Shown: one piece after another, positions 30,264 to 61,463 of the stretch
Layout: each line of letters opens with the position of its first letter
How positions within the stretch are numbered: position 1 is the stretch's first letter
NCBI RefSeq assembly: GCF_001709345.1
Contig: NZ_MDTQ01000001.1
Coordinates: 3,148,769 to 3,212,768, forward strand
Origin: Terasakiispira papahanaumokuakeensis
Lineage (GTDB): Bacteria > Pseudomonadota > Gammaproteobacteria > Pseudomonadales > Halomonadaceae
Length of the DNA stretch: 64,000 bases
Direction of reading: 5' to 3'
Program-made: the position numbers and the translations under genes
Notes under the pieces: generated by a model
The model's input: the letters and a program-made list of their open reading frames with translations, nothing else
Database searches by the model: none
What the model was told of the DNA's origin: nothing

Positions 30264-30426
30264 TCTCTCTCATCCGGACTGTTACCGTCGGCTCCGGTTT
30301 CTCACCGGATCTGCTGGACCCTGCAACATAGTGAACTCTACAACATAGATTGCAAGCGCTCGCGGGCTTAGTGAGACATCACTCACTTTACCGCCGGTCG
30401 GGAATTGCACCCTGCCCTGAGAATAA
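30264..30426 (-). ncRNA. FMN riboswitch (RFN element) in ribB leader
   Basis: On the minus strand the conserved RFN blocks appear in order: CAGGGCAGGGTGCAATTCCC, GACCGGCGGTAAAGTGAGTG, AGCCCGCGAGCGC, GATCCGGTGAGAAACCGGAG, CCGACGGTAACAGTCCGGAT, GAGAGAGAATAA. The P1 helix closes with TTCTC/GAGAA. It ends about 165 bases before ribB. I see no hairpin with a T-tract in between, so control may be at translation; a weak ATAGGG/CCCTAT leader stem and a CGATGC/GCATCG hairpin (30118-30132) just ahead of the ribosome binding site could be the expression platform (inference). Confidence 0.93.
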
Positions 30427-30526
30427 GCTTCATGAATTGATTAAGAAGCCTGATCACTTTAGCGCGGACCGATATATAGCGCAAATCGATACGGGTTCAC
30501 TGAATGATATAAAAGACGCTATACCG

Positions 30527-42653: not shown

Positions 42654-43523
42654 TCAATCAGCACCATGGTTCAACCGTTGGCGCAATGCCTTGATGACCG
42701 CGTCCGTCTGCGGGCGTTGATGTCGCCAAAGGAAAAAAGACTCGGCCGCCTGTTCAACCAGCATCCCCAGCCCATCGGCCGTGATGGCCCCTTGCGAGGA
42801 AGCCCACTGCAGGAAAATTGTTGGCATCGCACCGTACATCATATCGTAGGCCATCGCCTCGGGCGTAAACAGCGTATCGGGGAGTGGCGGTAACTCGCCC
42901 GACAAACTCGCAGCCGTTGCATTAATCACGACATCATAGCGGGCCGCTGCTTGTACGTCACAATCACTCAGCGATGACCACCCGCCACCAGAGACAGACC
43001 CAAGCGATTCAAAATGAGCTGCGAGCGCCTCAGCTTTAGCCGCCGTACGGTTCGCAATATGCAGTTGCGCCGGCTGCTCGGCTAATAAGGGGGCAATCAC
43101 ACCTCTTGAAGCTCCTCCTGCGCCCAAAACCAAAAGCCGCTTCCCGGCCAGTGTTTGGCCATGGTTCTGAGTCAAATCTCGAACCAGGCCAACACCATCC
43201 GTATTATCACCATAAAGCTGACCGTTTTTGCCCAGCTGAAGCGTATTCACCGCGCCCGCCTGACGCGCCCGAGGCGACAGGACATCACACAAAGCATAGG
43301 CCTCTTCTTTAAAAGGCACGGTGACATTGGCTCCGCGCCCCCCTTGGGCAATGAAAGCACGGAGCACCCCAGCAAAATCATCCAAAGGCGCCTCACAAGT
43401 TTCATAGACCAGTGTTTGCCCGGTCTCACGGGCAAATGCCTGGTGAATCCAAGGGGATTGACTATGGTGCACCGGATTACCGAATACTCGATAGAGATCA
43501 ACGGGTTGGGCAGGATCCGTCAT
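42654..43523 (-). CDS. aroE: Shikimate 5-dehydrogenase
   Basis: 289 residues from ATG at 43523 (a TTG precedes it). Reduces dehydroshikimate to shikimate with NADPH in the chorismate pathway. Motifs: YRVFGNPVHHSQSPWIHQAF (shikimate-binding Ser pair region), GANVTVPFKEEA with the catalytic Lys, AGAVNTLQ, YGDNTDGVGLVRDL, VLGAGGASRGVIAPLL (NADP loop), ANRTAAKAEAL. In relatives aroE commonly follows hemF; here hemF is about 17 kb away, across the aryl polyene cluster, on the same strand. Its product feeds chorismate, from which the cluster's aromatic starter may derive. Confidence 0.95.
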   Translation of the reverse strand: MTDPAQPVDLYRVFGNPVHHSQSPWIHQAFARETGQTLVYETCEAPLDDFAGVLRAFIAQGGRGANVTVPFKEEAYALCDVLSPRARQAGAVNTLQLGKNGQLYGDNTDGVGLVRDLTQNHGQTLAGKRLLVLGAGGASRGVIAPLLAEQPAQLHIANRTAAKAEALAAHFESLGSVSGGGWSSLSDCDVQAAARYDVVINATAASLSGELPPLPDTLFTPEAMAYDMMYGAMPTIFLQWASSQGAITADGLGMLVEQAAESFFLWRHQRPQTDAVIKALRQRLNHGAD

Positions 43524-44007
43524 CAAGAGAAGCTTCTCCTTATCATCATATCTTCAAACTTACATTATCGGCCAGCCACGCCAGGCTCACAACGTTTGAG
43601 GCGTCATTCAACTCAGGTTTCACAAAGTACATAAAACAGACACTTTTCATCATCAAGTCGCTCAGAATCGGGCAAAACCTATGATATAGTCTCAAGTTGT
43701 CATTGAGTGTCTTCGATTTGTCACCATCCGGTCTTAGCAACATCGAGCTTGGGCCTGGCCAGGACTACGTTCGTAGGGCACGGATAAAGCTCTGATCTTA
43801 GAAAAATTGACCTTAAGAACATTGACCTTAAGAACATTGACCTTAAGAACATTGGCCTTAAAAGCATGAACCTTTTAAACAGGGCGCCCTTTTAACAATC
43901 GCTTAAAGGGTTTGGCTTACGCGCACCATGACGCATCATCATGAATGCCCATACCTAAGGGCAGATGTTATTAGGATTTTAAGGAAAGCGACTGAAGGGA
44001 TGGTACT
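43524..44007. other. Promoter region of the aryl polyene cluster
   Basis: 480 bp between divergent aroE and the first cluster gene. Contents: a small dyad CTACG-TT-CGTAG (43765-43776), a 15-bp tandem repeat (43807-43866) and TATGATATAGT (43680-43690), which could be a -10 region though no good -35 was found. No regulator gene is present. A 63-codon frame starting at 43928 is not supported. Confidence 0.55.
43807..43866 (+). repeat. 15-bp tandem repeat, four units, in the aryl polyene leader
   Basis: TTGACCTTAAGAACA three times without change (43807, 43822, 43837) and a fourth variant TTGGCCTTAAAAGCA (43852). A further decayed TGAACCTTTTAAACA follows at 43867. It ends about 140 bp before the first cluster gene and may lie in the mRNA leader or promoter. 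Confidence 0.95.
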
Positions 44008-44700
44008 GTGGAGTTCAGATTCAATATTCACCATCAGGCCCAATGGTCTTCTAAGCTGCATGATACCCCCGAGCTCCCCGAAGTTCCTGCGATGCAACGG
44101 CGACGTCTCAGTCGTTTAACCAAAATGGCGCTCAGGGTTTGCTTCGATATGCCCGGCACCTCAGTGCTTCCCAGCGTCTTTGCTTCTCGTCACGGTGAAA
44201 TCAGTCGCACACTGACCCTATTGAATCAAATGATTGCAGGAGAGCCATTATCCCCGGCTGCATTTTCACAGTCCGTTCATAATACCGCATCCGGCACCTA
44301 TGCCATTCAGGCACACAATACACAATCATCCAGCGCACTCTGTGCCGGTGCGGAAACACTGCCAATGGCACTGCTTGAAGCCTGGAGTATCAGCCAATAT
44401 CGACAAACGCCAGTACTCCTTGTCTATGTCGATGAGCCCCAAGCGGTTTGCTATCAATTATTCCAGGATGAGCTCGGCGACGCACTCGCACTGGGTTGGA
44501 TCATCGACGCCCATCCGCAAGGCCAAATTCTCAGTGAATGGCGACCCAATACCGTGACGACGCCCTCCACTTCACCGTCCACGTCGCTGCCCATGTCATT
44601 GGCTTGGCAGTGGTGGCAACAACAGGTGCAGTCTGAGTCCACGATGAAATCGATCATCTGTCGACACCCTAAAGGCGAATGGCACTGGCATGTGGCGTAA
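44008..44700 (+). CDS. apeC: Ketosynthase-like chain-length factor of the aryl polyene cluster
   Basis: 230 residues from GTG, with AAGGGA 7-8 bases before. It is a half-length beta-ketoacyl-synthase-like protein (Pfam ketoacyl-synt_2 type): RRRLSRLTKMALRVC, FASRHGEISRTLTLLNQM, LSPAAFSQSVHNTASG. The nucleophile-bearing TACSS of true ketosynthases is replaced by HNTQSSSALCAG. In characterised aryl polyene clusters this protein (ApeC) pairs with the ketosynthase ApeO to set chain length. First gene of the cluster; overlaps the acyltransferase gene by 11 bp. Symbol by analogy with the Xenorhabdus nomenclature. Confidence 0.8.
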   Translation: MEFRFNIHHQAQWSSKLHDTPELPEVPAMQRRRLSRLTKMALRVCFDMPGTSVLPSVFASRHGEISRTLTLLNQMIAGEPLSPAAFSQSVHNTASGTYAIQAHNTQSSSALCAGAETLPMALLEAWSISQYRQTPVLLVYVDEPQAVCYQLFQDELGDALALGWIIDAHPQGQILSEWRPNTVTTPSTSPSTSLPMSLAWQWWQQQVQSESTMKSIICRHPKGEWHWHVA

Positions 44701-45463
44701 GCTCGAATACTACTGGCGGCTAGCGGCGACAGGATTGTCTTTTGCCATTTTTGGGCTCGGTGGGCTAAGTGCATCGCTCACGCTGTTTAACCTCATTCGC
44801 TTGCTCCCCTGTTCGCGCCAATCCAAACGCGTTATCAGTCAGCGCTGGGTACACCAGTTGTTTCGCTTTTATATCGGCCTGATGAAAGCAATGGGGGTGC
44901 TGACGCTCGATGTGAGGGGCAAAGAGCAGCTGGCCGCAAGCCAAGGACAGATCATTCTGGCTAATCATCCTTCATTGCTGGATGTAGTGATTCTGATCAG
45001 TCTGGTGCCACGAGCGAACTGTCTCATCAAAGAAAGCTTACAGCAAAATATCTTTATGCGTGGCATCATTGCCGCTGCCGGCTATATCGGTAATGGTACT
45101 GATAGCACTCTGGTGTTAAAGCACTGTCAACAAGTGCTGAATGAAGGCGATAACTTGATCATTTTTCCTGAAGGCACCCGCTCGACACCCGGCCAGCCCA
45201 TTTCATTACGGCGCGGCGCCGCTCAAATTGCCGTACGTAGTCAAGCAACGGTGATACCCATTCATATGCAATGCCACCCCACGACACTGACTAAGTCCGA
45301 ACGCTGGTATCAAATTCCAGAACAGCGCGCTCACTTTTCAGTCGCAGTGATGGCACCTATTTCGTCGACGACCTATCAGGTAGAGGCGAGTGAAAGTCGA
45401 CAAGCCAGACGCTTAACACAATACCTACAAGACCTTTTTAACAAGGCGCAGGGACCCTTATGA
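44690..45463 (+). CDS. PlsC-like acyltransferase of the aryl polyene cluster
   Basis: 257 residues, one N-terminal membrane segment (LAATGLSFAIFGLGGLSASL). The glycerolphosphate acyltransferase motifs are present: NHPSLLD (H-x4-D, catalytic) at about residue 92 and FPEGTRSTPGQ. In aryl polyene clusters such enzymes are thought to help build the lipid carrying the polyene. Overlaps both neighbours (11 bp upstream; ATGA with the ACP downstream). Confidence 0.87.
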   Translation: MWRKLEYYWRLAATGLSFAIFGLGGLSASLTLFNLIRLLPCSRQSKRVISQRWVHQLFRFYIGLMKAMGVLTLDVRGKEQLAASQGQIILANHPSLLDVVILISLVPRANCLIKESLQQNIFMRGIIAAAGYIGNGTDSTLVLKHCQQVLNEGDNLIIFPEGTRSTPGQPISLRRGAAQIAVRSQATVIPIHMQCHPTTLTKSERWYQIPEQRAHFSVAVMAPISSTTYQVEASESRQARRLTQYLQDLFNKAQGPL

Positions 45464-45747
45464 ACGAACTGAACCTCCGTATAAAACAACTCATTATCGA
45501 TGCTTTAGAACTTGAAGACATCAGCCCTAATGATATTGAAGATGATGCACCCTTGTTTGGCGACGGCCTGGGACTGGACTCCATTGATGCACTCGAGCTG
45601 GGGATGGCATTGAAAAAACAATTCGGCATTACGCTAGATGCTAAATCAGACGCCACCAAAGCGCATTTTGCCAGTGTTAACGCTTTAGCTCACTTAGTCA
45701 GCCAACAGCAGGACACGAATAACCCGCAGGAGTCACACCGTGCATAA
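45460..45747 (+). CDS. apeE: Acyl carrier protein 1
   Basis: 95 residues, acidic, with the phosphopantetheine site LGLDSIDALEL (Ser41). Predicted to carry the aryl starter or the growing polyene chain. It starts inside the acyltransferase stop (ATGA) and overlaps the second ACP by 8 bp. The C-terminal tail is hydrophilic (SQQQDTNNPQESHRA). Two different ACPs in tandem are a fixed feature of aryl polyene clusters. Symbol by analogy. Confidence 0.9.
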   Translation: MNELNLRIKQLIIDALELEDISPNDIEDDAPLFGDGLGLDSIDALELGMALKKQFGITLDAKSDATKAHFASVNALAHLVSQQQDTNNPQESHRA

Positions 45748-46000
45748 TCGCGATGCCATTCTCACTCAACTGAAAGATATTCTGGCTGAAGACTTTGAGA
45801 TTGATCCACAACAGGTACACCCAGAGACCAACCTTTATGTTGACCTGGATCTCGACAGTATTGATGCGGTTGACCTGGTGGTTAAGTTACAGCAACTGAC
45901 CGGTAAAAAAATCCAGGCCGAAGAGTTCAAATCCGTCCGTACGGTTGAACAACTCGTGACCACTATTGATCAGCTGGTTAATCAACCGACATCGGCTTGA
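45740..46000 (+). CDS. apeF: Acyl carrier protein 2
   Basis: 86 residues; site DLDLDSIDAVDLVVK (Ser40), surrounded by the usual acidic helix 2. More FabACP-like than the preceding ACP. In studied systems the two ACPs have separate jobs in starter loading and elongation, which cannot be assigned from sequence here. Followed directly by the COG4648 membrane protein. Confidence 0.9.
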   Translation: MHNRDAILTQLKDILAEDFEIDPQQVHPETNLYVDLDLDSIDAVDLVVKLQQLTGKKIQAEEFKSVRTVEQLVTTIDQLVNQPTSA

Positions 46001-46002
46001 GC

Positions 46003-46569
46003 ATGAGTTTTGTGAAAAGCTTAGGCGTCATCGCCACACTGATGATGGTCGCCTATCCCTTGCTGGTCTATGGCGCCATACAGACAGGGCAGCTGTCAGC
46101 ACTGCTCCCAGTGCTGGCGCTGCTGTTGATCTTTAGAGCATTACGTTGTGCTCAACAGCGTCAGTACCTGATGCTGTGTGTCGCGCTGGCGGGCGTGGGG
46201 CTACTCGGCGTCGCCCAGCAACTGGATCAGCATCAATGGGTATTATGGTATCCGGTGATGATGAATGTTGGCATGCTCAGTGTATTCGGGTATTCATTGC
46301 AACAATCACAGCCATTGATTGAACGGTTTGCCCGCCTACGCCAACCCGACATTCCTGAGTCAGCACGCCCTTATTTACGCCGAGTCACTCAGACCTGGTG
46401 TCTCTTTTTTATGCTCAACGGCGGCATCGCCACAATCACGATTCTATTGGGGAATCTCGATTGGTGGGCACTGTATAACGGCTTATTGGCTTATATCGGT
46501 ATTGCTTTAATGATCGTGGGTGAATGGCTATACCGATACTTTTTTATTCAACCTCACCGCCAGGCCTAA
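46003..46569 (+). CDS. COG4648-type membrane protein of the aryl polyene cluster
   Basis: 188 residues from ATG at 46003; a TTG six bases earlier overlaps the ACP stop and is an alternative. Five to six hydrophobic segments (LGVIATLMMVAYPLLVYGAI, LLPVLALLLIFRALRC, WYPVMMNVGMLSVFGY, WCLFFMLNGGIATITILLG). Small polytopic proteins of this family occur in almost all aryl polyene clusters; function unknown. The neighbouring loop ERFARLRQPDIPESARPYLR matches the family. Confidence 0.8.
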   Translation: MSFVKSLGVIATLMMVAYPLLVYGAIQTGQLSALLPVLALLLIFRALRCAQQRQYLMLCVALAGVGLLGVAQQLDQHQWVLWYPVMMNVGMLSVFGYSLQQSQPLIERFARLRQPDIPESARPYLRRVTQTWCLFFMLNGGIATITILLGNLDWWALYNGLLAYIGIALMIVGEWLYRYFFIQPHRQA

Positions 46570-46573
46570 TGCC

Positions 46574-48028
46574 ATGTCCATGACTCCTGCTCTGAATCAG
46601 TCCTATTTTTGGCCCATGAATACGCCGGTGAGCATACAAAGCAGCCGAGCCTTAAACGCGAATGACTTAAACGCTGAGGCACAGACACTGGCGGAGACAC
46701 TCAAGGCACATCCCGGTCAACGCTGGTTACTGATCGCTCAAGAGATCGAACAATTTCTACTCGGTTGGCTGGCCCTTTGTTTTGCGGGCAAAACCATCAT
46801 TTTGCCGCCTAACAGCCAACCCGCCACTTTGAATCAACTGGCCGGGAATATTGAGGGCTGGTTAAGCGATCAAACGTTATCGCTCAACTGTCACGGCCAT
46901 GTGCTGAACACTCGATCGCTTTGGCATACGGTTTCGCCTGAAGCACTGAAAAACCGTTTAGACACGCAGAACGTGTCTTCCAGCACTCTTCAATGGCACT
47001 TTCCTTATGATGTCGCCGTTGAAATGTTCACCTCTGGAAGTACTGGACAACCGAAGGCGATACATAAACGGCTAAGTCATTTTTTGAGGGAAGTCGACAC
47101 CCTTGAGACCACCTTTGGCTCATTGGATGGCGCCCCGATTCGCCATGTCTGGCTTGCCGTCTCACATCAACATATTTACGGCATATTATTTGGCTTACTG
47201 TGGCCACTCTGTACCGGCCGCAGCCAAATTCGGCCGACGTTACATTATGGCGAACAGCTGGTCGAACAACTCCACCTGACGCCTGAAACCGCGATTATCG
47301 GCTCTCCCGCTTTACTTCGTTTGTTGGCCGAAGACAGTGCCTCCTTGTCAAACGACCGTCCCAGCATTGTCTTCAGTTCAGGCGGTGCGCTATCTGCCAA
47401 CGATGCCGCCACTGTTCACAAGCACTGGGGGCAAGCCCCTTATGAGATTTATGGCAGCACAGAAACCGGGGGCATGGCCTGGCGCCAGCAGCAACCTCAG
47501 AAGTCACAACAACCGTATCCACCACAGCAAGGTACTGAAACCGCTTGGACACCTTTTGCCGGTGTGCAATGGCAACTCGATGATCAACAAGCCCTAAAGG
47601 TTCGCTCTCCATTACTAAACAAGCCCGATCAATGGTGGTCCACTGGCGATTGTGCGAGACCTTCAGGGTCAGGGTTTATCCTCACCGGCCGGCTGGATCG
47701 CATGATTAAGTTAGCCGAAAAGCGCATTTCACTCGACCAGATGGAACAGCATCTGAAGGCACACCCGGAGGTTGAGGACGCGGCGTTGATCGTACTGAAC
47801 AAACACCGCCAACAATTAGGCGCGATTATTCAGCTCACTGAAAGCGCTGCCCAGCAATGGGCACAGTCAGGCAGAAAAATAGGCATTGCGCACCTTAAAT
47901 CACATTTAAACCAATGGTATGAAGCGGTCACCCTGCCGCGCTATTGGCGCCTGGTTGAACATATCCCTTGTAACCCCCAGGGCAAAAGGGTTCACGCCCA
48001 GTTGAAGGAGCTATTCGATGAGCGTTAA
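46574..48028 (+). CDS. apeH: AMP-forming acyl/aryl ligase for starter activation
   Basis: 484 residues from MSMTPALNQS. Adenylate-forming enzyme: TSGSTGQPKAIHK (P-loop, about 158-170), IYGSTETGG (AMP pocket), WWSTGDCARP and GRLDRMIKLAEKRISLDQME (hinge, C-terminal domain). It is shorter than standard acyl-CoA ligases, as in other cluster versions. ApeH in Xenorhabdus activates 4-hydroxybenzoate and loads it on an ACP; the same is inferred here. Overlaps the dehydratase gene by 11 bp. Confidence 0.88.
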   Translation: MSMTPALNQSYFWPMNTPVSIQSSRALNANDLNAEAQTLAETLKAHPGQRWLLIAQEIEQFLLGWLALCFAGKTIILPPNSQPATLNQLAGNIEGWLSDQTLSLNCHGHVLNTRSLWHTVSPEALKNRLDTQNVSSSTLQWHFPYDVAVEMFTSGSTGQPKAIHKRLSHFLREVDTLETTFGSLDGAPIRHVWLAVSHQHIYGILFGLLWPLCTGRSQIRPTLHYGEQLVEQLHLTPETAIIGSPALLRLLAEDSASLSNDRPSIVFSSGGALSANDAATVHKHWGQAPYEIYGSTETGGMAWRQQQPQKSQQPYPPQQGTETAWTPFAGVQWQLDDQQALKVRSPLLNKPDQWWSTGDCARPSGSGFILTGRLDRMIKLAEKRISLDQMEQHLKAHPEVEDAALIVLNKHRQQLGAIIQLTESAAQQWAQSGRKIGIAHLKSHLNQWYEAVTLPRYWRLVEHIPCNPQGKRVHAQLKELFDER

Positions 48029-48374
48029 TCACCCGCCGCAGGTCAGGCTTTTAGCACAACAACCGCATACGGTCTCATTGGAAGCGACCCTATCGCCTGA
48101 CTTACCCTGCTTCGCAGGCCACTTCCCAGGTCATCCGGTCTTGCCTGGCGTGATCATGATGCATTGGGTGATGTGTTGGGCGCAGGAGTACCTGGCAATC
48201 CAGCAGCCGGCTCAGCAGCTGGAAGCCATTAAGTATCAAAAAATAGTGCAACCGGGCATGTCCATTCAGATCGAGCTGCATTATCAAGCCGATAAACACA
48301 AACTTTCCTTTGCCGTGACCCACGCAGGGGCTCCCTGTAGCTCGGGGCGGATCGCGTTAACAGGCGCCGTATAA
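48018..48374 (+). CDS. apeI: Hotdog-fold 3-hydroxyacyl-ACP dehydratase
   Basis: 118 residues with a single hotdog domain; FAGHFPGHPVLPGVIMMHW is the FabA/FabZ active-site helix region, His in HFPGHPVLPG being catalytic. With a second dehydratase at 56.8 kb it would make the conjugated double bonds. Stop and next start overlap at one base (TAATG). Confidence 0.88.
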   Translation: MSVNHPPQVRLLAQQPHTVSLEATLSPDLPCFAGHFPGHPVLPGVIMMHWVMCWAQEYLAIQQPAQQLEAIKYQKIVQPGMSIQIELHYQADKHKLSFAVTHAGAPCSSGRIALTGAV

Positions 48375-50122
48375 TGCAGGTGTGTGCCCTGATTCCTTGC
48401 TATCGCCATCGTCATCGGTTGGCGCAAACGCTGATGCAGTTGCGTCAGTACGATCTGCCTTGTCTGGTGATTGACGATGGTTCAGAGCCTGATGACGCAG
48501 CGGCTATTGCCCATATATGCGAGCAAGCGGGCGACGGCGTGCAGTTGATTCGTCACAATCGCAACCGGGGGAAGGGTGCTGCCGTGATGACCGGCTTTCA
48601 AGCTGCGGCAACACAAGGCTTCAGCCATGCACTACAAATTGATGCAGACGGCCAACACAATACGCAGGATATTCCACGCTTTCTAAACCAGGCGCAGGCC
48701 TCTCCCGAAGCCGTCATCACGGGAATCCCCCAGTATGATCAAAGTGTTCCTCGCCACCGTTTGTATGCGCGTTACCTCACCCATGCCTGGGTCTGGATCG
48801 AGACGCTCAGTCTTGAATTGAAAGACACCATGTGCGGATTCCGACTGTATCCGCTGTCAGCCGTGATGGCCTTAATACAACAGGTTAATATCGGCCAGAG
48901 AATGGATTTTGACACCGACATACTGGTGCGACTGTATTGGCAAGGAGTGCCAGTCATTCAACAGCCCACCCGAGTCATTTACCCACAGGACGGTCGATCC
49001 AATTTCCGTCCCTGGCAAGACAACCTCTTGATTTCCTGGATGCATACCCGATTGGTCTGCGGCATGTTAAAGCGCCAGGGGTTACGGTTGTGGCCTAAGC
49101 GGAGGCAAACCGTTGATCCTCAACAGGGATGCCCCTCCCAACCCACGACCCCCAGCATTCATTGGGCGAAAACTCGCGAGAGGGGCAGCCTCAAAGGGCT
49201 CATGCTGATGTCCTGGCTATATCGTCACGGCGGGCGCCCCCTTTTCAAAGCAGTGCTTTATTTTGTCGTGGCTTATTTTTTTCTCACCGGACGCAATGCT
49301 CGCCAAGCCTCCGCGGATTATCTACAGCGCTTATATCAGTTCACCGGCGGCACGAGCCCTAAACCCAGCCTCAAGCATAACTGGCAACACTTTCTCAACT
49401 TCAGTCAGGCCATTATCACGCGCTTGGATGCCTGGCATCAGCACGGGCAGATCACTCCCCAAGTCGATACCCAGGCACCGGATACGCTCAAACAGCATCT
49501 CAGTACAGGGAAAGGCATATTTATCCTCGTCTCCCACATGGGCAATATTGAGCTATGTCGTGCGCTGGCTGAACATAAATCGCTCCGACTCAATATTCTG
49601 CTGCACTCCCGTAATGCTGAAAAAATTAATCAGGTGGTGCGATCCCTTCAACTGGATACACCAATTCGATTAATACAAGTCGATGACATTGACCCCAGCA
49701 CATCCATTGACTTAGCCCAACGCATCGAAGCCGGTGAATGGGTCATCATGGCCGCCGACAGAACCCCTGTCTCAGGGGCAACCCGGACCTTTGAAATACC
49801 GTTTCTGGGCCAACCGGCACTGTTTCCTCAAGGCCCCTTTATATTAGCCAGTTTGATGCGCTGCCCGGTCTATAGCATGTTTTGTCTCAAAACAAGCGCT
49901 CATCAATGGCAGGTCCATTGGCACGAGATTGCGGATCACCTGAATGGGCCTCGCAAAACGCGTTGGCCAAGATTACAGCACGCCTGTGAAACCTATGTGG
50001 CGCAATTAGAGCAAGCCTGTCAGCGCCAACCATTGCAATGGTTTAATTTTTACGACTTCTGGGCTCGACCTCACAGCATGTCGCCCACCCAGCCAACCGC
50101 CAAGCAGGATCACACCTTATGA
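48374..50122 (+). CDS. Glycosyltransferase 2 - LpxL-like acyltransferase fusion
   Basis: 582 residues, two enzymes in one. N-terminal GT-A family 2 domain (about 1-235): ALIPCYRHRHRLAQTL, LVIDDGSEPDD, GKGAAVMTGF, and QIDADGQHN with the metal-binding Asp motif. C-terminal LPLAT (about 275-575): FLTGRNARQASADYL, SHMGNIEL (H-x4-E), AADRTPVSG, FLGQPALFPQGPFILA, as in LpxL-type late acyltransferases. Such fusions are typical of aryl polyene clusters and are thought to add sugar and acyl chain to build the lipid anchor. ATGA overlap with the thioesterase gene. Confidence 0.92.
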   Translation: MQVCALIPCYRHRHRLAQTLMQLRQYDLPCLVIDDGSEPDDAAAIAHICEQAGDGVQLIRHNRNRGKGAAVMTGFQAAATQGFSHALQIDADGQHNTQDIPRFLNQAQASPEAVITGIPQYDQSVPRHRLYARYLTHAWVWIETLSLELKDTMCGFRLYPLSAVMALIQQVNIGQRMDFDTDILVRLYWQGVPVIQQPTRVIYPQDGRSNFRPWQDNLLISWMHTRLVCGMLKRQGLRLWPKRRQTVDPQQGCPSQPTTPSIHWAKTRERGSLKGLMLMSWLYRHGGRPLFKAVLYFVVAYFFLTGRNARQASADYLQRLYQFTGGTSPKPSLKHNWQHFLNFSQAIITRLDAWHQHGQITPQVDTQAPDTLKQHLSTGKGIFILVSHMGNIELCRALAEHKSLRLNILLHSRNAEKINQVVRSLQLDTPIRLIQVDDIDPSTSIDLAQRIEAGEWVIMAADRTPVSGATRTFEIPFLGQPALFPQGPFILASLMRCPVYSMFCLKTSAHQWQVHWHEIADHLNGPRKTRWPRLQHACETYVAQLEQACQRQPLQWFNFYDFWARPHSMSPTQPTAKQDHTL

Positions 50123-50541
50123 CATCAATGGCTCCCGTGACCGCCAGCGTGCAGGTCGAAGTTCCTTTTCACGACATTGATCCCATGGGGGTGGCCTGGC
50201 ATGGCCATTACTTCAAGTATTTTGAAATTGCGCGTTGTGCCCTACTCGACAAGATTGACTATAACTACCCACAAATGAAGGCATCGGGCTATATGTGGCC
50301 GATTGTCGATACTCGGGTCAAATACGTCGGATCAGCCCTTTTCCAGCAAACACTCAATGTTACTGCCACCTTGCTGGAGTATGAAAATAGGCTCAAAATC
50401 GGCTATGACATCGCTGAAGCCCAGAGCGGTCAGCGCCTCACCAAGGGCTATACCATCCAGGTCGCGGTGGATATCAACAGCCGAGAAATGTGCTATGCCT
50501 CACCGGCCATACTGCTGGAGAAGCTGGGGATATCGGCATGA
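50119..50541 (+). CDS. apeK: Acyl-ACP/CoA thioesterase, 4HBT (YbgC-like)
   Basis: 140 residues, hotdog fold. The VPFHDIDPMGVAWHGHYFKY segment is the 4-hydroxybenzoyl-CoA thioesterase signature with the catalytic Asp. It would release or edit acyl intermediates during polyene assembly. In many clusters an aromatic ammonia-lyase gene sits between the GT-acyltransferase and this gene; here they overlap by ATGA, leaving no room for one. Confidence 0.88.
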   Translation: MTSMAPVTASVQVEVPFHDIDPMGVAWHGHYFKYFEIARCALLDKIDYNYPQMKASGYMWPIVDTRVKYVGSALFQQTLNVTATLLEYENRLKIGYDIAEAQSGQRLTKGYTIQVAVDINSREMCYASPAILLEKLGISA

Positions 50542-51254
50542 GTGGAGATACCTGCACGCCCGGCAAACAGCGACGAGGGTTGTTCGTCTTGAGCCTATGC
50601 GCTGCTATTTTGTGCCTACAGGTATTGATGAGCTCACAGGTCAACGCCGAAACGACTCAAGTGACAGCACTGCAACAGCTGGCCAAGACACTGACGGCAC
50701 CAGAACGCGTCCGAGCAGATTTTACTCAGAAACGCCATTTAAAAGCCTTCAATCAGCCACTGATCACTCAAGGGCACATGCTGTTATTACCGCAGCGAGC
50801 CCTCATCTGGCAACAGCAATCACCGGTGCCTCAAATACTGGTTCTGACCTCTGCACAAGGCTGGACGATTGATCAGGGTGAGGCCTCCGCACTCTCCGCT
50901 CAGGCACAGGCATCAATCGCCCCCCTGTTGTTGGCGGCGTTAAGCGGTGACTGGCCCTCATTACAGACGCAATTCACACTGGATTATCAGTCTGCTCAGA
51001 ATGTCACAGCGCCCTGGCAGCTATGGCTCGACCCTAAGCCCGAGACGCCTCTGCACGCGGTTTTTGAACAGATTAAGCTCCAAGGCCATCACACCATCGA
51101 GCAGATCACTTTACGTGGCCGTGAAGGCGATCTGACTGAATTAACACTCACCCCTCAAGCGGCTACGCCGCTGACAGCACAGGAGCGGGATTGGTTAACA
51201 CCTCCTGCGTCTTTATCCGATGCCCCCGTAGTCGAGAACCCGCCTCAACCATGA
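50538..51254 (+). CDS. LolA-like periplasmic lipoprotein carrier
   Basis: 238 residues from MSGDTCTPGKQRRG at an ATGA overlap; an earlier in-frame start at 50490 is internal to the thioesterase gene. Signal peptide with core LFVLSLCAAILCLQVLM cut near NAE. LolA-fold features: RVRADFTQKRHLKAFNQPL and GHMLLLPQRALIWQQQSPVPQ, then alternating strands. It is presumed to bind the lipid-linked polyene and move it across the periplasm to the outer membrane. It is coupled to the MMPL exporter. Confidence 0.88.
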   Translation: MSGDTCTPGKQRRGLFVLSLCAAILCLQVLMSSQVNAETTQVTALQQLAKTLTAPERVRADFTQKRHLKAFNQPLITQGHMLLLPQRALIWQQQSPVPQILVLTSAQGWTIDQGEASALSAQAQASIAPLLLAALSGDWPSLQTQFTLDYQSAQNVTAPWQLWLDPKPETPLHAVFEQIKLQGHHTIEQITLRGREGDLTELTLTPQAATPLTAQERDWLTPPASLSDAPVVENPPQP

Positions 51255-53590
51255 AGCGTTTAGATTTCCGCCCCTTCATTCAGTGGCATAGCCTATTGTG
51301 GATAGGATTAGTCATCATATGTCTACTGGCGCTCAGCCTAAGAGACGATTATCCCGTCAGCGAGGATATCGCCAGCCTGATTCCTCATGCGGATCAAGAT
51401 AAACAGCGAGACATTATTCAGCGGATGGCCAAACCCTTTGATCAGCAAATCCTGATCTTACTCGGGGGGCCAACGCCCGATTCAGTCACTCAAGCGGCTC
51501 AGCAATTAGCACAGCAATTGCGATCAGAGCATGGGCAACCAGAACAAGGGCAAACAGAACCCGCCTTTGAGCAAGTCCAGCTCAATAACACCCAACAGGG
51601 CCAGCAGTTAGCCCGTCTGTATTTTCCTTATCGCTTTATGCTGCTGACGGATCAACAACAACAGGCGCTGGCCAGCCCGAATTCTCTTGCGGAGCAACAG
51701 CAACGACTATGGCAACAACTCAATAGCCCCACCAGTCCGGTGTCATCATCGCTCCTAAGTCGTGACCCTTGGCTGCTGTTTCCTGAATGGCTGAGTCAGC
51801 ACAATACTCAACACTGGCAACTGTATAAGGGCATCGCATTACATCAAAACTCGGATGGTTTTTGGACATTAATCCGTGCACGTTTCAATGGCAGCGCCTT
51901 TGACCCTGGTTTGCAACAACGCTTGATGCCGCTCATTAACACCAGCCTGGACAAGCTGCCCGACAATATCACCGCCGCACGCGCGGGATTGCTGTTTCAT
52001 GCCGCAGCAGCCACCCAGCAAGCACAGCACGAAGTCACCCTGATTGGTGGCCTATCGATCATGGGCATCATTACCTTGGTCCTACTAGCGTTCGCCTCTC
52101 TACGCCCACTCTTACTAATCTTACTCAGCCTAAGCACGGGATTATTAGCCGCCCTGACTTTCTGCTGGTGGTGGTTTGGTAGCTTACAGTTGCTCACACT
52201 GGTGTTTGGCACTAGCTTAATCGGCATTGCGGTGGACTACAGTTTTCATTGGTGTTGTGAGCGGCAGAGTTCAACAGACTCCGCCATGCAGACATTGCGC
52301 CACTTAGCACCCGCATTAACTTTGAGCGCCGCCAGTAGTTTGTTGGCGTATCTGACCATGACATTGATGCCACTGCCAGCCATTCAACAAATGGCCACCT
52401 TCTGCGCGATCGGTCTGGCAATAGCCGCCTTGACACTGTGGCTGCTCGCCCCCAGTCTAGCGCCAGACATTAAGACGCCGCGTTTCAGTCGCTGGTTGTG
52501 GCGTCACCTGCCATTGCCGGGTCACCGAGTGCTCTGGTTACTCTTAGTCATCCTGCTCATGGGGCTCACTCAAGTCTCGTTGAATGATGATATCCGAGCC
52601 CTGAGAGGCGGAGATCCCACATTACGACAACAAGAGCAGCAAGTTCGCCAACTGGTTCAGCTGCAAGACAATCAGTTTTTTATCATCAGCGGTACGGATC
52701 AAGAACAGCTGTTACAACGAGACGAGGCTTTACGTCAGCAACTGGCTCATTTCAGTGGTATCGACAGCCAGCAAGGAGTGAGCGAATGGTTGCCATCTCA
52801 ACAGCGCCAGCAACGCAATTATCACCTTCAGGCCCCGCTGTTCGCTGATCAAGGGCTCGGATCGTTAGCTCAATTAGGCTTTGACATCACGCCATTAAAA
52901 CAACTTCAAAGCGTTTATCAGCAGGCTGATGGACACTGGCTGACAGCCGCGGTCTTGACGGATCAGCTCCCGATGATCGCCGGGCTCTATGACTTCCAAG
53001 GCCCCCACCCTTATGTGATTCGGCGTGTGCAGGGCATTCAGGATCTCGCGGGTCTCGAACATCTTGCCGACACCTTGCCGGGCGTTGCCTGGGTTGACCC
53101 TGTCGCAGAGATATCTCAGCAGTTAGGCCATCTCCGTTTATTAACCTGGGGGGTCATTTTAACCACCTTAGCGATAGCTGCCGCGCTACTCAGCTGGCGC
53201 TTATCTTGGCCCATCGCCTGGCGGCTATTAGCCGTTCCAACCCTAGGCGGGCTGTCGGCCATTGGCGGTATCAGTTGGCTAGGCCAGCCCCTGACACTGT
53301 TCCACAGCTTGGCTTTGTTATTGGTATTAGGGATTGGGATTGATTACGCCCTATTCCATCAATTTGCCCGACAACATCGGCCACAAGTCGGTTTAGCCAC
53401 GACCTTGGCGGGACTATCAACATTATTAGCCTTCGGCACGCTGGCCTTCAGCCATACCCCTGCGTTGGCGGGCTTTGGCCTACTGCTGAGTATTGGCATT
53501 GTCGTCTGTTACAGCTTGGCCCCCGCATTATGCCGCCCAGAGTTCAGGACGCCACAGTCTTCTGTTACTGAAATTCAAACACACGATTAA
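51251..53590 (+). CDS. MMPL/RND-type exporter of the aryl polyene lipid
   Basis: 779 residues from MKRLDFRPFIQWH (ATGA overlap). Two RND halves: a first transmembrane helix (LLWIGLVIICLLALSL), a Gln-rich periplasmic domain, a helix bundle (GGLSIMGIITLVLLAFASLR ... GTSLIGIAVDYSFHW), a second periplasmic domain, and a final bundle with LLVLGIGIDYALFHQFARQH. The G-I-x-x-D-Y motifs contain the proton-relay Asp of MMPL proteins. It likely removes the lipid from the inner membrane for the LolA-like carrier. Confidence 0.9.
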   Translation: MKRLDFRPFIQWHSLLWIGLVIICLLALSLRDDYPVSEDIASLIPHADQDKQRDIIQRMAKPFDQQILILLGGPTPDSVTQAAQQLAQQLRSEHGQPEQGQTEPAFEQVQLNNTQQGQQLARLYFPYRFMLLTDQQQQALASPNSLAEQQQRLWQQLNSPTSPVSSSLLSRDPWLLFPEWLSQHNTQHWQLYKGIALHQNSDGFWTLIRARFNGSAFDPGLQQRLMPLINTSLDKLPDNITAARAGLLFHAAAATQQAQHEVTLIGGLSIMGIITLVLLAFASLRPLLLILLSLSTGLLAALTFCWWWFGSLQLLTLVFGTSLIGIAVDYSFHWCCERQSSTDSAMQTLRHLAPALTLSAASSLLAYLTMTLMPLPAIQQMATFCAIGLAIAALTLWLLAPSLAPDIKTPRFSRWLWRHLPLPGHRVLWLLLVILLMGLTQVSLNDDIRALRGGDPTLRQQEQQVRQLVQLQDNQFFIISGTDQEQLLQRDEALRQQLAHFSGIDSQQGVSEWLPSQQRQQRNYHLQAPLFADQGLGSLAQLGFDITPLKQLQSVYQQADGHWLTAAVLTDQLPMIAGLYDFQGPHPYVIRRVQGIQDLAGLEHLADTLPGVAWVDPVAEISQQLGHLRLLTWGVILTTLAIAAALLSWRLSWPIAWRLLAVPTLGGLSAIGGISWLGQPLTLFHSLALLLVLGIGIDYALFHQFARQHRPQVGLATTLAGLSTLLAFGTLAFSHTPALAGFGLLLSIGIVVCYSLAPALCRPEFRTPQSSVTEIQTHD

Positions 53591-53615
53591 ACAACACGAG
53601 GCATCACGACAGCTC

Positions 53616-54896
53616 ATGGATAGCTCAACATCAAACACGGCTCACGCGCAGACCCGGCAACACACTCAGGTTGCCATTATTGGCGCAGGTCCTTCAGGCT
53701 CAGTGGCTGGAGCGCTACTCAAACGTGCCGGCATTGATGTCACCGTGCTGGAGCGTAGTCGCTTCCCTCGTTTTAGTATCGGTGAAAGCTTGCTACCTCA
53801 AAGCATGGAGATGTTAGAGGAGGCAGGCCTGTTAGAAGCGATTGAGCAGGCAGGCTTTCAATACAAGAATGGCGCAGCCTTTCGCTGTGCAGATCGTTAC
53901 TGCGAGTTTGATTTTCGAGAAAAAAGCAGTGCAGGGCCTGGAACGACGTTTCAAGTTCAGCGCGCCAATTTTGATCAGTTGCTGGCCGATGCGGCGGCAC
54001 AACAAGGTGTGCCAGTCCATTTTGAACATACCGTCAATGCCATTGAGTTCAACAATGAGCAAGCCGAGCTTGAGATCAGTACACCTGAAAGCGCTTACAC
54101 ACTGACTGCAGATTTCATTCTGGATGCTTCGGGCTATGGACGTGTACTACCCCGATTATTAGATTTAGAGCAGCCCAGCCCATTGCCCCACCGCTCGGCG
54201 TTGTTTACGCATATTGAAGACCGAATCACTGACCCAACTTATGATCGTAATAAGATTTTGATCAGTGTGCATCCGACCATGCCGGATATCTGGTATTGGC
54301 TCATCCCCTTCAGCAATGGCCGCTGTTCTCTGGGTGTCGTTGGGTTGGATAGCCAACTCGAACTGGATCAATCCCAACACCATGACCCGGCAGATTCTAC
54401 AGTACTGCAATCCTGGGTCGCGCAAGAGCCGAAACTCAAAGCGCTACTCGAACAGGCCCAGTATGATCATCCAGTACAGACCATTCGAGGGTATTCCTGT
54501 GGGGTGTCACAACTGGCAGGAGACCGCTTTGCGCTGCTCGGCAATGCGGGAGAATTTCTTGATCCGGTCTTTTCATCTGGAGTGACGATCGCGTTAAAAT
54601 CTGCCAGCCTCGCAGCTCATGCCTTAATTCGTCGATATCAGGGAGAAACAGTGGACTGGGCGACAGCATATACCGTACCGCTGATGCAAGGAGTCAACAC
54701 TTTCCGAACCTACGTGGAAGCGTGGTATGACGGTCGTTTTCAGGATGTCATTTTCTACCCAGACCCAGAACCGACGATCAAAGCTCATATTTCCTCAATC
54801 CTGGCGGGGTATGCCTGGGATAAAAGCAATCCTTATGTTGTAGAGTCCGAACGTCGACTAAACACGCTCGCGACCCTATGCCGAGAGACTGTTTAA
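53616..54896 (+). CDS. FAD-dependent oxidoreductase of the flavin halogenase family
   Basis: 426 residues from MDSSTSNTAHAQT. GAGPSGSVAGALLKRAG is the FAD-binding loop, FSIGESLLPQS the family's second motif, and WYWLIP (226-231) fits W-x-W-x-I-P, diagnostic for flavin-dependent halogenases. GNAGEFLDPVFSSGV is the C-terminal FAD site. I do not see the Lys expected about 5-10 residues after GESLLP, so halogenation is uncertain; hydroxylation or desaturation is possible. Xanthomonadin and flexirubin clusters carry related enzymes. No flavin reductase is adjacent. Confidence 0.87.
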   Translation: MDSSTSNTAHAQTRQHTQVAIIGAGPSGSVAGALLKRAGIDVTVLERSRFPRFSIGESLLPQSMEMLEEAGLLEAIEQAGFQYKNGAAFRCADRYCEFDFREKSSAGPGTTFQVQRANFDQLLADAAAQQGVPVHFEHTVNAIEFNNEQAELEISTPESAYTLTADFILDASGYGRVLPRLLDLEQPSPLPHRSALFTHIEDRITDPTYDRNKILISVHPTMPDIWYWLIPFSNGRCSLGVVGLDSQLELDQSQHHDPADSTVLQSWVAQEPKLKALLEQAQYDHPVQTIRGYSCGVSQLAGDRFALLGNAGEFLDPVFSSGVTIALKSASLAAHALIRRYQGETVDWATAYTVPLMQGVNTFRTYVEAWYDGRFQDVIFYPDPEPTIKAHISSILAGYAWDKSNPYVVESERRLNTLATLCRETV

Positions 54897-55579
54897 TGCG
54901 TTGTTTCAGCTTAATGGGCTTTCGTTTAATGATATCGTTTCTTGATCGAACGTCTTTGCAAGCCGTCATCTATCTATTGATGGGCCTGCTTCTACTAGGC
55001 TGTGCTCACGAAACGCAAAAACCTCAGGAGTCTGTTCAAAAGCCCATTGAGCCTTCAGAGCAACAGTCTCCTGCTCAGGCCCCCACGCCTCGCTTTAACT
55101 TACTGGCCCCCACACAGTTAGGGGATACGCCATTACGTTTACAACGTTTAGCCGTGTCACGCCCAGACCAGAAGCACACCCTACTGGCTCAATGGCAAGT
55201 TCACACCGGCCACTTATCACTGGAAGCCCTGACACCGTTAGGGCTGCCCTTGCTCAGTCTGACGTATACGGATCACCAGCAACTGTCCACGAAGACTTAT
55301 ATTCCCATTCCAGAAGGCCTATCCGCCGAACGCGTGATCGCCGACCTACAGTGGGCTTATTGGCCGATACCGGCACTGAGTGAAGCGCTGCAAGCGGGCT
55401 ATCACATTCGCCAGGCGCAAAAGACATGTGCCCAAGGTCACCATTGCCGACAATTATGGTATGGCCAGCAGCTCATCAGTGAAGTCGACTACTTGGACCA
55501 AGTGCACAACACACTTGTGATTGTTGATCATCAATATGGCTATCAACTGCATATTTCGACCCTTACGGTGACCCCATGA
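54896..55579 (+). CDS. DUF3261 outer-membrane lipoprotein
   Basis: 227 residues from MRCFSLMGFRLMI, overlapping the flavoprotein stop as TAATG; a later start (MISFLDRTSL) would also leave a full signal. LLMGLLLLGC is the lipobox (Cys about 36), so a lipoprotein. DUF3261 proteins are found almost only in aryl polyene clusters and resemble LolB, the outer-membrane receptor for LolA cargo. It may insert the polyene lipid (inference). LSLEALTPLGLPLLSLTY is the family's strand pair. Confidence 0.82.
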   Translation: MRCFSLMGFRLMISFLDRTSLQAVIYLLMGLLLLGCAHETQKPQESVQKPIEPSEQQSPAQAPTPRFNLLAPTQLGDTPLRLQRLAVSRPDQKHTLLAQWQVHTGHLSLEALTPLGLPLLSLTYTDHQQLSTKTYIPIPEGLSAERVIADLQWAYWPIPALSEALQAGYHIRQAQKTCAQGHHCRQLWYGQQLISEVDYLDQVHNTLVIVDHQYGYQLHISTLTVTP

Positions 55580-56784
55580 ATCACGGCTCCGTCGGCTTGC
55601 CCCATATGGCCATGATCTCTAGCCTCGGCACCCACTTGGATGAAGTGTGGCAACACTGGGCTTATGGTGAACAGGATCATTACCTCAGTTCATGGGCCTC
55701 GGCTTTGAACCCCGAACGCGACTGGCTCACCGGGCAAGTACGCGCCTCCCTCCCCGCGATAGGGCCGGAATATCAACGCTTAGCCTCCCGCTGTACTGCC
55801 ATGTTAGAGCATTGTATTCAACAGCTGCTCGACCCCATAGAAGCCCTCATTGAGCAATATGGGCGAGACCGAATGGCGGTCATCATCGGCTCCAGCACCT
55901 CAGGCATTAGCCAAGGCGAGCAAGCCTGGAGGCACCAACAACAGCACCCGGATTTCCCTCCTGGCTATCATTACGACCAGCAGGCCTTGAGCAGCCCTGC
56001 CCACTATATCCAACAACGTCTACGCCTTAGCGGCCCTTGCTATACACTCTCAACCGCCTGCAGCTCCAGCGGTAAAGCCTTTGCAACGGCCCAACGGTTA
56101 ATCCTTAATGGCATTGTCGACGTTGCCTTGGTCGGAGGGGCCGATGAGTTATGCGACCTGACGACTCAAGGGTTCCATGCGCTAGCGTCTGTATCTGATC
56201 ATCCCTGCCAACCCTTTGGCGCTGAGCGCGAGGGCATTAACATTGGCGAAGGCGCGGCGCTCTTCGTGATGACGAAGACTCAAGCAGAGGTCAATTTACA
56301 GGGCGTTGGCGAGTCATCCGATGCCCATCATATGTCAGCGCCGGATCCCTCTGGCGCTGGCGCCTTAGAGGCTATGCATCAGGCCTTGAAGATTGCCGCA
56401 TTATCACCTTCAGAACTGGGCTATGTGAATTTACATGGGACGGGCACCCCCCTGAATGATGCGATGGAGAGCTTGGCCTTTCGGACCCTTTTCGCCGAAC
56501 ACACCTCATCCGTTTGCTGTAGTGCGACGAAACGCCTCACAGGCCATACGCTAGGTGCTTCAGGTGCGCTGGAACTGGCGCTGTGCTGGTTACTTTTAAA
56601 GACGGATTACAACCGTGAAGGCATTATTCCGCCGATGCGAGGCGATTATGCTTTAGACGAAATGCTGCAACCTCTCCCTTTGGTTTGGCAAACAGCACGC
56701 GTATTATCCACCCCCACGATTTTAAGTAACTCTTTTGCCTTTGGCGGCAGTAATGTCGCCGTCTGTATCGGTAGACACGACTGA
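55576..56784 (+). CDS. apeO: Beta-ketoacyl-ACP synthase
   Basis: 402 residues at an ATGA overlap. Thiolase-fold condensing enzyme: TACSSSGKAFATAQRL (nucleophile Cys162), LHGTGTPLNDAMES and SATKRLTGHTLGASGALELAL (both catalytic His), GGSNVAVCIG at the C-terminus. It should elongate the aryl starter together with the chain-length-factor-like protein encoded at 44.0 kb. Symbol by analogy with Xenorhabdus ApeO. Confidence 0.9.
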   Translation: MNHGSVGLPHMAMISSLGTHLDEVWQHWAYGEQDHYLSSWASALNPERDWLTGQVRASLPAIGPEYQRLASRCTAMLEHCIQQLLDPIEALIEQYGRDRMAVIIGSSTSGISQGEQAWRHQQQHPDFPPGYHYDQQALSSPAHYIQQRLRLSGPCYTLSTACSSSGKAFATAQRLILNGIVDVALVGGADELCDLTTQGFHALASVSDHPCQPFGAEREGINIGEGAALFVMTKTQAEVNLQGVGESSDAHHMSAPDPSGAGALEAMHQALKIAALSPSELGYVNLHGTGTPLNDAMESLAFRTLFAEHTSSVCCSATKRLTGHTLGASGALELALCWLLLKTDYNREGIIPPMRGDYALDEMLQPLPLVWQTARVLSTPTILSNSFAFGGSNVAVCIGRHD

Positions 56785-56792
56785 CGACGATT

Positions 56793-57263
56793 ATGCAGAA
56801 ACTTGATCCCCCTATTACTGACTTACTGCCCCACGCAGCCCCGATGGTCTTACTTGATCGCTTATGCCATTACACAGCGAATAAAGTGCAGTGTGAGCTG
56901 ACAATCCAACCGGATAGCTACCTGTACGACCCGCAACAACAAGGCGTGCCTAATTATGTTGCGCTTGAGTATATGGCACAGACTATCGGCGTTATTGCTG
57001 GGCTGGAAGCTAAAGCGCGAGCAGATAAAGTTAAACTGGGCTTTCTGCTGGGCACTCGACGCTGCCAGCTACATACAGCACTATTTTCATGTGGTGAAGT
57101 ATTACAAATCACCGCTGAGCGGGTTTGGCAAGAAGATGAATCGGGACTGGCCGTTTTTGCTTGTCAGGTCACCGGGCGTCATCAGCAATGTTTGGCAGAA
57201 GCTCAATTGAATGTGTACCAGCCACACGATATCGACGCTTTTTTTCAAGAGGGAGCGGCATGA
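56793..57263 (+). CDS. apeP: Second 3-hydroxyacyl-ACP dehydratase
   Basis: 156 residues, hotdog fold. LPHAAPMVLLDRLCHY places His at the active site, and YVALEYMAQTIGVIAGLEA with Glu is the central helix. It is larger and of a different subfamily from ApeI at 48.0 kb; in studied systems the pair act together. ATGA overlap with the ketoreductase. Confidence 0.85.
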   Translation: MQKLDPPITDLLPHAAPMVLLDRLCHYTANKVQCELTIQPDSYLYDPQQQGVPNYVALEYMAQTIGVIAGLEAKARADKVKLGFLLGTRRCQLHTALFSCGEVLQITAERVWQEDESGLAVFACQVTGRHQQCLAEAQLNVYQPHDIDAFFQEGAA

Positions 57264-57994
57264 GCACTGAACATCAAGCGCTTTTAGTCACCGGCGCCAG
57301 CCGTGGTATCGGCCGAGCCATTGCACTATATCTCGCCCGTAAGGGGCACCCCATCACCTTGCACTATCGAGGTAACCATGAGGCAGCCAAAGCCGTCCAG
57401 CAGCAGATAGAAGCCGAAGGCGGCCAAGCGCAGCGATTGGCTTTTGATGTCAGTGATCGTGAGGCGGCCCATACTGCCTTAAGCCAGCACATCGAACAAT
57501 ATGGCCCTTTCTACGGCATTGTATTGAATGCCGGAATTGCACGGGATAACGCCTTTCCTGCTTTGCTGGATGAAGAATGGGATCAGGTCATCCACACCAA
57601 CCTTGACGGCTTTTATAATGTGCTCAAGCCCTGCGTCATGCCAATGGTGCAAGCCCGCAAAGGAGGCCGTATCGTCACCTTATCGTCGCTCTCTGGACAA
57701 GCAGGCAATCGCGGCCAAGTGAACTACAGCGCCGCCAAAGCAGGCATCATCGGCGCGACCAAATCCCTAGCACTGGAACTGGCCAAACGACGGATCACCG
57801 TCAACTGCGTGGCCCCAGGCCTAATCGAGACAGAAATGCTAGAGACGTTGCCAACCGATGAGATCGTCAAGCAAATTCCCATGCGCCGCCTAGGGCAACC
57901 CGAGGAAGTCGCCGCCATGGTGGGCTTTCTAATGTCGGATGAAGCCACCTACATTACTCGGCAGGTCTTTGCCGTTAATGGGGGGTTGTTGTAA
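57260..57994 (+). CDS. apeQ: 3-ketoacyl-ACP reductase (SDR)
   Basis: 244 residues from MSTEHQALLVTGASRG, at an ATGA overlap; the open frame further up lies inside the dehydratase gene. FabG-type short-chain dehydrogenase: TGASRGIGRAIALYL (NADPH), LNAGIARDNAF, TLSSLSGQAGNRGQVNYSAAK (catalytic Ser, Tyr, Lys), VNCVAPGLIETEM. It reduces each beta-keto step before dehydration. Confidence 0.93.
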   Translation: MSTEHQALLVTGASRGIGRAIALYLARKGHPITLHYRGNHEAAKAVQQQIEAEGGQAQRLAFDVSDREAAHTALSQHIEQYGPFYGIVLNAGIARDNAFPALLDEEWDQVIHTNLDGFYNVLKPCVMPMVQARKGGRIVTLSSLSGQAGNRGQVNYSAAKAGIIGATKSLALELAKRRITVNCVAPGLIETEMLETLPTDEIVKQIPMRRLGQPEEVAAMVGFLMSDEATYITRQVFAVNGGLL

Positions 57995-58079
57995 TACGGG
58001 CTCGTGTCGACAAGACCCATCGAGACAGAACGAACCAATACGAGCACCTCAACTGAGTGTGTAGTCACGGAGACAAATC

Positions 58080-59303
58080 ATGGTACATCGGGTGGTAATT
58101 ACTGGGATGGGCGGTATCTCAGCACTGGGCGATCAATGGTCTAAGATCGAACAAGGGCTTCGTGCACGACAAAACAAAATACAAGTCATGGACGAGTGGG
58201 CCCGATATGAAAACCTCGGCACCCGGCTGGGGGGCCCTGTCAGTGATTTCAAAGCCCCCCCTTACCCTCGAAAGAAAGTTCGCGGCATGGGTCGCGTCTC
58301 ACTGATGGCCACACGTGCCGCCGAAATGGCACTAGAGCAAGCCGGATTACGGGATGACCCCAGCATTCAAGATGGGCGCATGGGCGTGGCCTTCGGTTCA
58401 TCAACAGGCAGTACAGAACCTGTTCGCGTCTTCGGCAATATGCTCAATGACGGCACCATGCAGGGGGTCACTGCAACCACTTATATCCAAATGATGGCGC
58501 ACACGACCGCCGTGAATATCGGGGTTTTCTTTGGTTTAAAAGGGCGTGTTCATACCACCTCCAGTGCTTGCACATCAGGCAGCCAGGGGATTGGCTATGC
58601 TTACGAAGCGATTCGCCATGGCTATCAACAAATGATGATCGCAGGCGGTGCTGAAGAGCTTTGTGCGACTGAGGCCGCTGTCTTCGATACCCTTTTTGCG
58701 ACCAGCACACAAAACGATACGCCCGAAATGACCCCTCGCCCCTTTGATGCCCAGCGTGATGGGCTTGTGATTGGAGAAGGTGCCGGTGCACTAGTGCTGG
58801 AATCACTGGAACATGCCCAGGCACGAGGAGCCAAGATCCTAGCGGAAATCGTGGGATTTGGGACTAACTCTGACGGCCTGCATGTCACTCAACCGAATGC
58901 CCAGACAATGCAAAAGGCCATGACCCTCGCCTTGGATCAAGCAGGATTAGCCCCGGAGGCAATTGGTTACATCAATGCCCATGGAACCGCCACTGAACGC
59001 GGTGATATTGCAGAATCCCATGCCACACGTGCCGTATTCGGCGGGCAGACACCCATCAGCACCCAAAAGGGGTATCTCGGCCATACACTGGGCGCCTGCG
59101 GCGCGCTAGAAGCCTGGTTCTCAGTCGAAATGATGCACCTAGGCTGGTTTGCACCCAATATCAACCTCAGCGATTTAGATCCTCAATGTGCCGAACTGGA
59201 CTATATTGTCGGCGATGGACGTCACATCGATACTGAATATGTCATGACCAACAATTTTGCTTTTGGCGGCATTAACACGTCGCTGATTTTGCGCCGGGTC
59301 TGA
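58080..59303 (+). CDS. apeR: FabF-like beta-ketoacyl-ACP synthase, last gene of the cluster
   Basis: 407 residues with its own GGAGA ribosome binding site; the only gene of the cluster's second half set apart (85 bp). TSSACTSGSQGIGYAY carries the nucleophile Cys164; INAHGTATERGDIAESHA and GYLGHTLGACGALEAW carry the two His; NNFAFGGINTSLI closes the fold. ApeR is thought to perform the first condensation on the aryl starter, with ApeO elongating. Followed by a 36-bp palindromic terminator. Confidence 0.9.
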   Translation: MVHRVVITGMGGISALGDQWSKIEQGLRARQNKIQVMDEWARYENLGTRLGGPVSDFKAPPYPRKKVRGMGRVSLMATRAAEMALEQAGLRDDPSIQDGRMGVAFGSSTGSTEPVRVFGNMLNDGTMQGVTATTYIQMMAHTTAVNIGVFFGLKGRVHTTSSACTSGSQGIGYAYEAIRHGYQQMMIAGGAEELCATEAAVFDTLFATSTQNDTPEMTPRPFDAQRDGLVIGEGAGALVLESLEHAQARGAKILAEIVGFGTNSDGLHVTQPNAQTMQKAMTLALDQAGLAPEAIGYINAHGTATERGDIAESHATRAVFGGQTPISTQKGYLGHTLGACGALEAWFSVEMMHLGWFAPNINLSDLDPQCAELDYIVGDGRHIDTEYVMTNNFAFGGINTSLILRRV

Positions 59304-60464: not shown

Positions 60465-60488
60465 CACCCTATTCCTAACCAGAAATTA

Positions 60489-61463
<975 letters not shown>

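Follow-up and report, generated by a model that had tools for sequence, protein, structure and literature searches.

The window analysed here is a 64,000-nucleotide stretch of the Terasakiispira papahanaumokuakeensis genome (RefSeq assembly GCF_001709345.1, contig NZ_MDTQ01000001.1, positions 3,148,769 to 3,212,768), and it contains an aryl polyene (APE) biosynthetic cluster with a short tandem repeat in its leader. The co-directional genes of the cluster belong to the families Ketoacyl-synt_2, LPLAT, two ACPs, AMP ligase, ApeI-like and ApeP-like dehydratases, LolA, MMPL, DUF3261, SDR and two ketosynthases. The sequence-only reading of this DNA had called it an aryl polyene cluster. Since ApeI-like and ApeP-like, ACP, AMP ligase, LolA, MMPL, DUF3261, SDR and ketosynthase matches lie downstream, this name is right, and the domain content fits a genuine APE cluster. 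On the other side, the cluster is followed by a FAD-dependent oxidoreductase-like gene and a gene that we take to be hemF from its sequence. A match to the latter was present within the 1.5-kb flank of aroE in 27 of the 29 loci of relatives, usually directly adjacent, whereas the distance between aroE and hemF is 17 kb here, with the APE cluster and the oxidoreductase-like gene intervening. Because the two genes are neighbours in most relatives but are split here by the cluster, gene order makes an insertion of the cluster between hemF and aroE probable. Elsewhere, the window contains an FMN riboswitch (30258-30428, - strand; Rfam RF00050, 115.7 bits).

The repeat lies inside the 481-bp divergent region between aroE and the APE cluster. 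Its core consists of three identical 15-bp copies (15/15) of TTGACCTTAAGAACA starting at 43807, 43822 and 43837, and TRF described it with a period of 15, 3.7 copies, 97% matches and a score of 105, the top TRF score within the window. The full extent, including a degraded copy at each edge, is about six units (43792-43881). The four copies that had been reported before, three exact and one variant at 43807-43866, were reproduced in position and identity (15/15 three times and 12/15), and so was their distance of about 140 bp to the cluster, as 141 bp separate the array end at 43866 from the GTG at 44008. The near-perfect middle copies and the decayed edges are also consistent with the recent expansion proposed at that time. 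An identity of at least 10/15 was reached by only 3 of 2000 random 15-mers of local dinucleotide composition, and no comparable array occurred in three first-order Markov simulations of the non-coding sample, versus 22 in the actual DNA. The APE-leader array, built of head-to-tail copies of a unit longer than 6 bp beyond what chance gives, is a minisatellite, a kind of repeat already known.

Table 1 Features of the aroE-APE-hemF region (positions in the window)
Feature	Position	Strand	Basis or remark
aroE (shikimate dehydrogenase), divergent neighbour	42654..43526	-	
Degraded upstream copy CTGATCTTAGAAAAA	43792..43806	+	10/15 to reference TTGACCTTAAGAACA, in phase
Three exact copies TTGACCTTAAGAACA	43807..43851	+	Direct reading, TRF
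Variant copy TTGGCCTTAAAAGCA	43852..43866	+	12/15 to reference TTGACCTTAAGAACA
Degraded downstream copy TGAACCTTTTAAACA	43867..43881	+	10/15 to reference, in phase; second TRF row extends to 43874
Plausible ribosome-binding site GAAGGGA	43994-44000		Inferred from sequence
First APE gene, beta-ketoacyl synthase N-terminal domain (Ketoacyl-synt_2), GTG start	44008..44700	+	
Aryl polyene biosynthetic cluster, genes co-directional	44008..59303	+	Domain matches
FAD-dependent oxidoreductase-like gene	59355-60467		Between APE cluster and hemF
Presumed hemF	60489..61451	-	Matches gene neighbouring aroE in relatives

A DNA search with the leader in 58 genomes (57 relatives, the own genus being represented by one genome) matched the own genome only, and no relative had an alignable leader. 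The leader had no match in plasmids, and a protein scan of the genome contigs gave no confirmed match. Homologues of the first APE gene were found in 99 of the 275 family genomes with about 26-43% identity (the own match apart), and their leaders were left unaligned because of this low identity. Within the own genome, the search for a second leader copy returned four weak matches only (E 1.44 or worse). The repeat motif with up to two mismatches occurred there at 13 places, three of which are the array itself, and the remaining ten somewhat exceed the two places obtained with a reversed control pattern. Five of these ten places were read: four fall within ORFs and one, L006, between genes. We rejected a dispersed repeat family, since the five places read appear incidental and the leader has no second copy.

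A genome-wide class of short tandem arrays

The sample of the own genome comprised the window and 40 stretches of 20 kb each, together 864 kb of 4.05 Mb. DNA outside mechanical ORFs of at least 100 aa was regarded as non-coding (104,750 bp in the sample), and an exact run of at least 12 bases repeated at a lag of 6-60 was counted as a comparable place. The non-coding sample contained 70 such places, 46 of them with a lag of 13-18 and a mode at 15. The counts were 0 at lags 10, 11 and 12, and 7, 9, 12, 7, 7, 4, 3 and 4 at lags 13-20; nine places had lags of 6-9 and few were found beyond lag 20. When runs of at least 10 bases were considered, the counts were 2, 0 and 4 at lags 10-12 and 8, 13, 20, 14, 8, 4, 5 and 5 at lags 13-20, and one Markov replicate gave 13 places across all lags. 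The unit sequences of the arrays across the genome are unrelated to each other. The APE-leader array, whose TRF score was the fifth among the intergenic arrays listed in 464 kb, is not special in its genome.

Inside ORFs, the lag was divisible by three in 29 of 38 places (16 of them with a lag of 15), as expected when the reading frame filters the outcome of a mutational process. Among the 68 of the 70 non-coding places that could be assigned, 22 lay in 16.7 kb of convergent, 36 in 53.9 kb of co-directional and 10 in 26.3 kb of divergent intergenic DNA, the kind that holds promoters (convergent versus divergent frequency, p = 0.0006; divergent deficit, p = 0.011). In co-directional regions, 21 of the 38 arrays with lags of 12-20 were nearer to the end of the upstream gene, showing no pull of the arrays toward gene starts. 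The distribution speaks against the class as a whole acting in promoters. Genome-wide duplication and slippage predict both the placement and the frame pattern observed, whereas dedicated promoter switches do not. A microhomology test on simple two-copy duplications of the own genome (n = 21, of which 11 had 0-1 extra matching bases) included too few cases to separate mechanisms.

Another intergenic array of the same class is present in the window at 1091-1145 (period 16, 3.4 copies, TTTGGTTTATTAGAGC), and further ones in the own genome (G000) are at L055:1025-1100, L062:7372-7449, L068:2316-2393 and L068:6517-6632. The array at L055:1025-1100 (G000:C1:1101025-1101100) is a perfect 8-bp repeat, 9.5 copies of TAAATGGC, situated between an ORF ending at 1013 and an ORF with a GTG at 1115, 14 bp before this start codon. 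The flanking ORFs presumably correspond to kdsB and a low-molecular-weight protein tyrosine phosphatase. This array is a better candidate for phase variation than the one in the APE leader.

Distribution in the family and changes in unit number

Twelve genera of the family, including the own one, and one order-level outgroup were sampled, with 100-300 kb each besides the own genome. The density of arrays with lags of 13-18 per 10 kb of non-coding DNA was 4.4 in the own genome, 3.2 in G029 and 3.3 in G011, intermediate in G010 (1.8, i.e. two arrays in 11.3 kb) and 0 to 1.3 in the remaining nine genomes, so that three of the twelve family genera sampled are array-rich. With G010 left out, the pooled counts were 62 in 153.9 kb for the rich versus 2 in 84.6 kb for the poor genomes; the pooled 'low8' set, from which both G010 and G041 were excluded, had five places at lag 15. 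One 50-kb stretch of E. coli used as a yardstick gave no match, but its 3.6 kb of non-coding DNA by the same kind of mask is too small to weigh.

Exonucleases of the ExoI, SbcD and ExoVII kind restrain slippage; a literature search on this effect found nothing relevant. The ExoI C-terminal domain and the ExoVII large subunit were detected in all 13 genomes, and SbcD was above the cut-off in 11 of them, both exceptions being array-poor. The end-joining protein Ku was present only in G022, an array-poor genome; all three array-rich genomes, the own one included, lack it. As the presence of Ku, ExoI, SbcD and ExoVII does not separate array-rich from array-poor genomes, we rejected them as the cause of the difference.

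Four arrays of G029 could be traced into sister species of its genus, g7, which is a sister genus of the own one. The TRF copy numbers in G029 and G067 differed for three of them (6.0/3.4, 4.4/2.6 and 5.2/4.2), and the fourth had 4.5/4.6. G070 was shorter at all three arrays for which both flanks were traceable, and its 14-bp array amounted to about one unit; G068, G069 and G006 were left unscored, their flanks being too diverged or partly aligned. Arrays of the same kind thus gain and lose units between close relatives, as VNTR loci do; this was seen for other arrays in another genus, g7 being the one genus compared. These changes make the earlier guess of variability reasonable, and by analogy lability of the APE-leader array itself is plausible.

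Origin and role of the array in the APE leader

The array contains three -35-like TTGACC hexamers, and the top + strand sigma-70-like score of the intergenic region overlaps it (TTGACC at 43837, spacer 16, TAAAAG). It could therefore be read as a phase-variable promoter element, in which the number of units tunes APE transcription through the TTGACC count or the activator-promoter spacing, as each 15-bp unit would shift upstream elements around the helix by about 1.4 turns. Repeats in promoters are known to tune surface genes through spacing, for instance at nadA, porA and hifA/hifB (PMC3899988). However, the score of 7.12 is below the median maximum of 8.50 of 200 Markov copies, the -10 candidate TAAAAG lacks the final T, a consensus scan of 43500-44200 gave no + strand promoter, and the array class avoids divergent regions. 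Titles and abstracts found in the literature did not tie APE to phase variation or tandem repeats. We consider such an element unlikely. The proposal of the sequence-only reading, namely that the copy number may tune expression of the pigment, a classical target of phase variation, is not supported: the genome has dozens of unrelated arrays, which are scarce in divergent regions, the best sigma-70-like site scores below the shuffled median, and the leader RNA fold has z = -0.01.

The three exact copies, being direct repeats ahead of an operon, could also be the tandem binding sites of a specific regulator of the APE genes, and the half-site ACCTTAAG presumably resembles MerR-family operator half-sites. 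Nevertheless, the units have no dyad partner, the units of the remaining arrays in the genome are unrelated, a 21-mer made of the repeat and the next half was absent from the genome and viral contigs searched, and no regulon is visible in the five other motif places that were read. We consider such an operator slightly less likely still. The least probable reading is a structured or translated leader, in which the RNA would form hairpins or the open frames of the repeat (43807-43869, 20 aa, + strand; 43721-43867, 48 aa, - strand) would encode a leader peptide. Any period divisible by three keeps such frames open automatically, and the one on the + strand begins at a TTG within the repeat. An RNA element was rejected, since 104 of 200 shuffled sequences folded no worse than the leader and Rfam gave no match at the array, its one match being the FMN riboswitch elsewhere in the window.

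In our opinion, the APE-leader array is probably a neutral or near-neutral product of a genome-wide tandem-duplication process, without a dedicated role as a pigment switch. A 15-bp stretch would initially have been duplicated, and later slippage, which we infer as the mechanism, or unequal exchange would have led to about six units with both edges decayed. The genome-wide process in this lineage would favour units of 13-17 bp, and the resulting arrays would be tolerated mainly in unconstrained DNA. We presume that the array was not selected for a role in APE expression. It might still influence this expression passively, as every additional unit lengthens the leader by 15 bp (about 1.4 helical turns) and brings in a further TTGACC hexamer. 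The counterpoint to a neutral origin is that the array lies between divergent genes and that three of its units carry TTGACC, which matches 5/6 of a -35 hexamer; a process-wide origin is compatible with a later co-option of a single array.

Generic slippage predicts neither the preference for units of about 15 bp nor the patchy spread among genera. The lengths of the class have their mode at 15 with almost none at 9-11, and a size so well defined, with an abrupt lower limit, suggests the footprint of a protein or of strand exchange over generic slippage. It is conceivable, though we advance it only tentatively, that in some lineages of the family a specific process of DNA metabolism creates tandem duplications of 13-17 bp throughout the genome, the APE-leader array being one of its products. 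A literature search for a class of intergenic arrays with units of about 15 bp revealed no such pattern in titles and abstracts, which is weak evidence, as subscription papers were mostly outside the search.

Before a perfect repeat in the leader of an operon is called a switch, it should first be weighed against the repeat background of its own genome. Of more interest than the APE array is the lineage-specific class to which it belongs, with its preference for units of about 15 bp: this background is a testable problem in mutation mechanism, and high-density arrays of about 15 bp in three of twelve genera are ready candidates for strain-typing markers.

Among known systems, the phase-variable promoter repeats (nadA TAAA, porA poly-G and hifA/hifB TA; PMC3899988) likewise lie 5' of genes for surface-associated products, but their units measure 1-4 bp and sit in a defined promoter, whereas the APE leader has a 15-bp unit and no promoter identified by the scan. 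Mycoplasma hyopneumoniae also has a genome-wide set of intergenic tandem repeats, which have been proposed to be regulatory; they are mostly mononucleotide and other simple repeats and promoter-associated, whereas those of the present genome are of 13-20 bp and commonest between convergent genes (PMC5179023). The array also resembles the bacterial VNTR or minisatellite loci used in MLVA typing, which share the head-to-tail unit longer than 6 bp, the perfect core, the non-coding position and, for the sister-genus arrays, the change in unit number between related genomes. Unlike these loci, the class in the present genome has a narrow peak of unit length near 15 bp.
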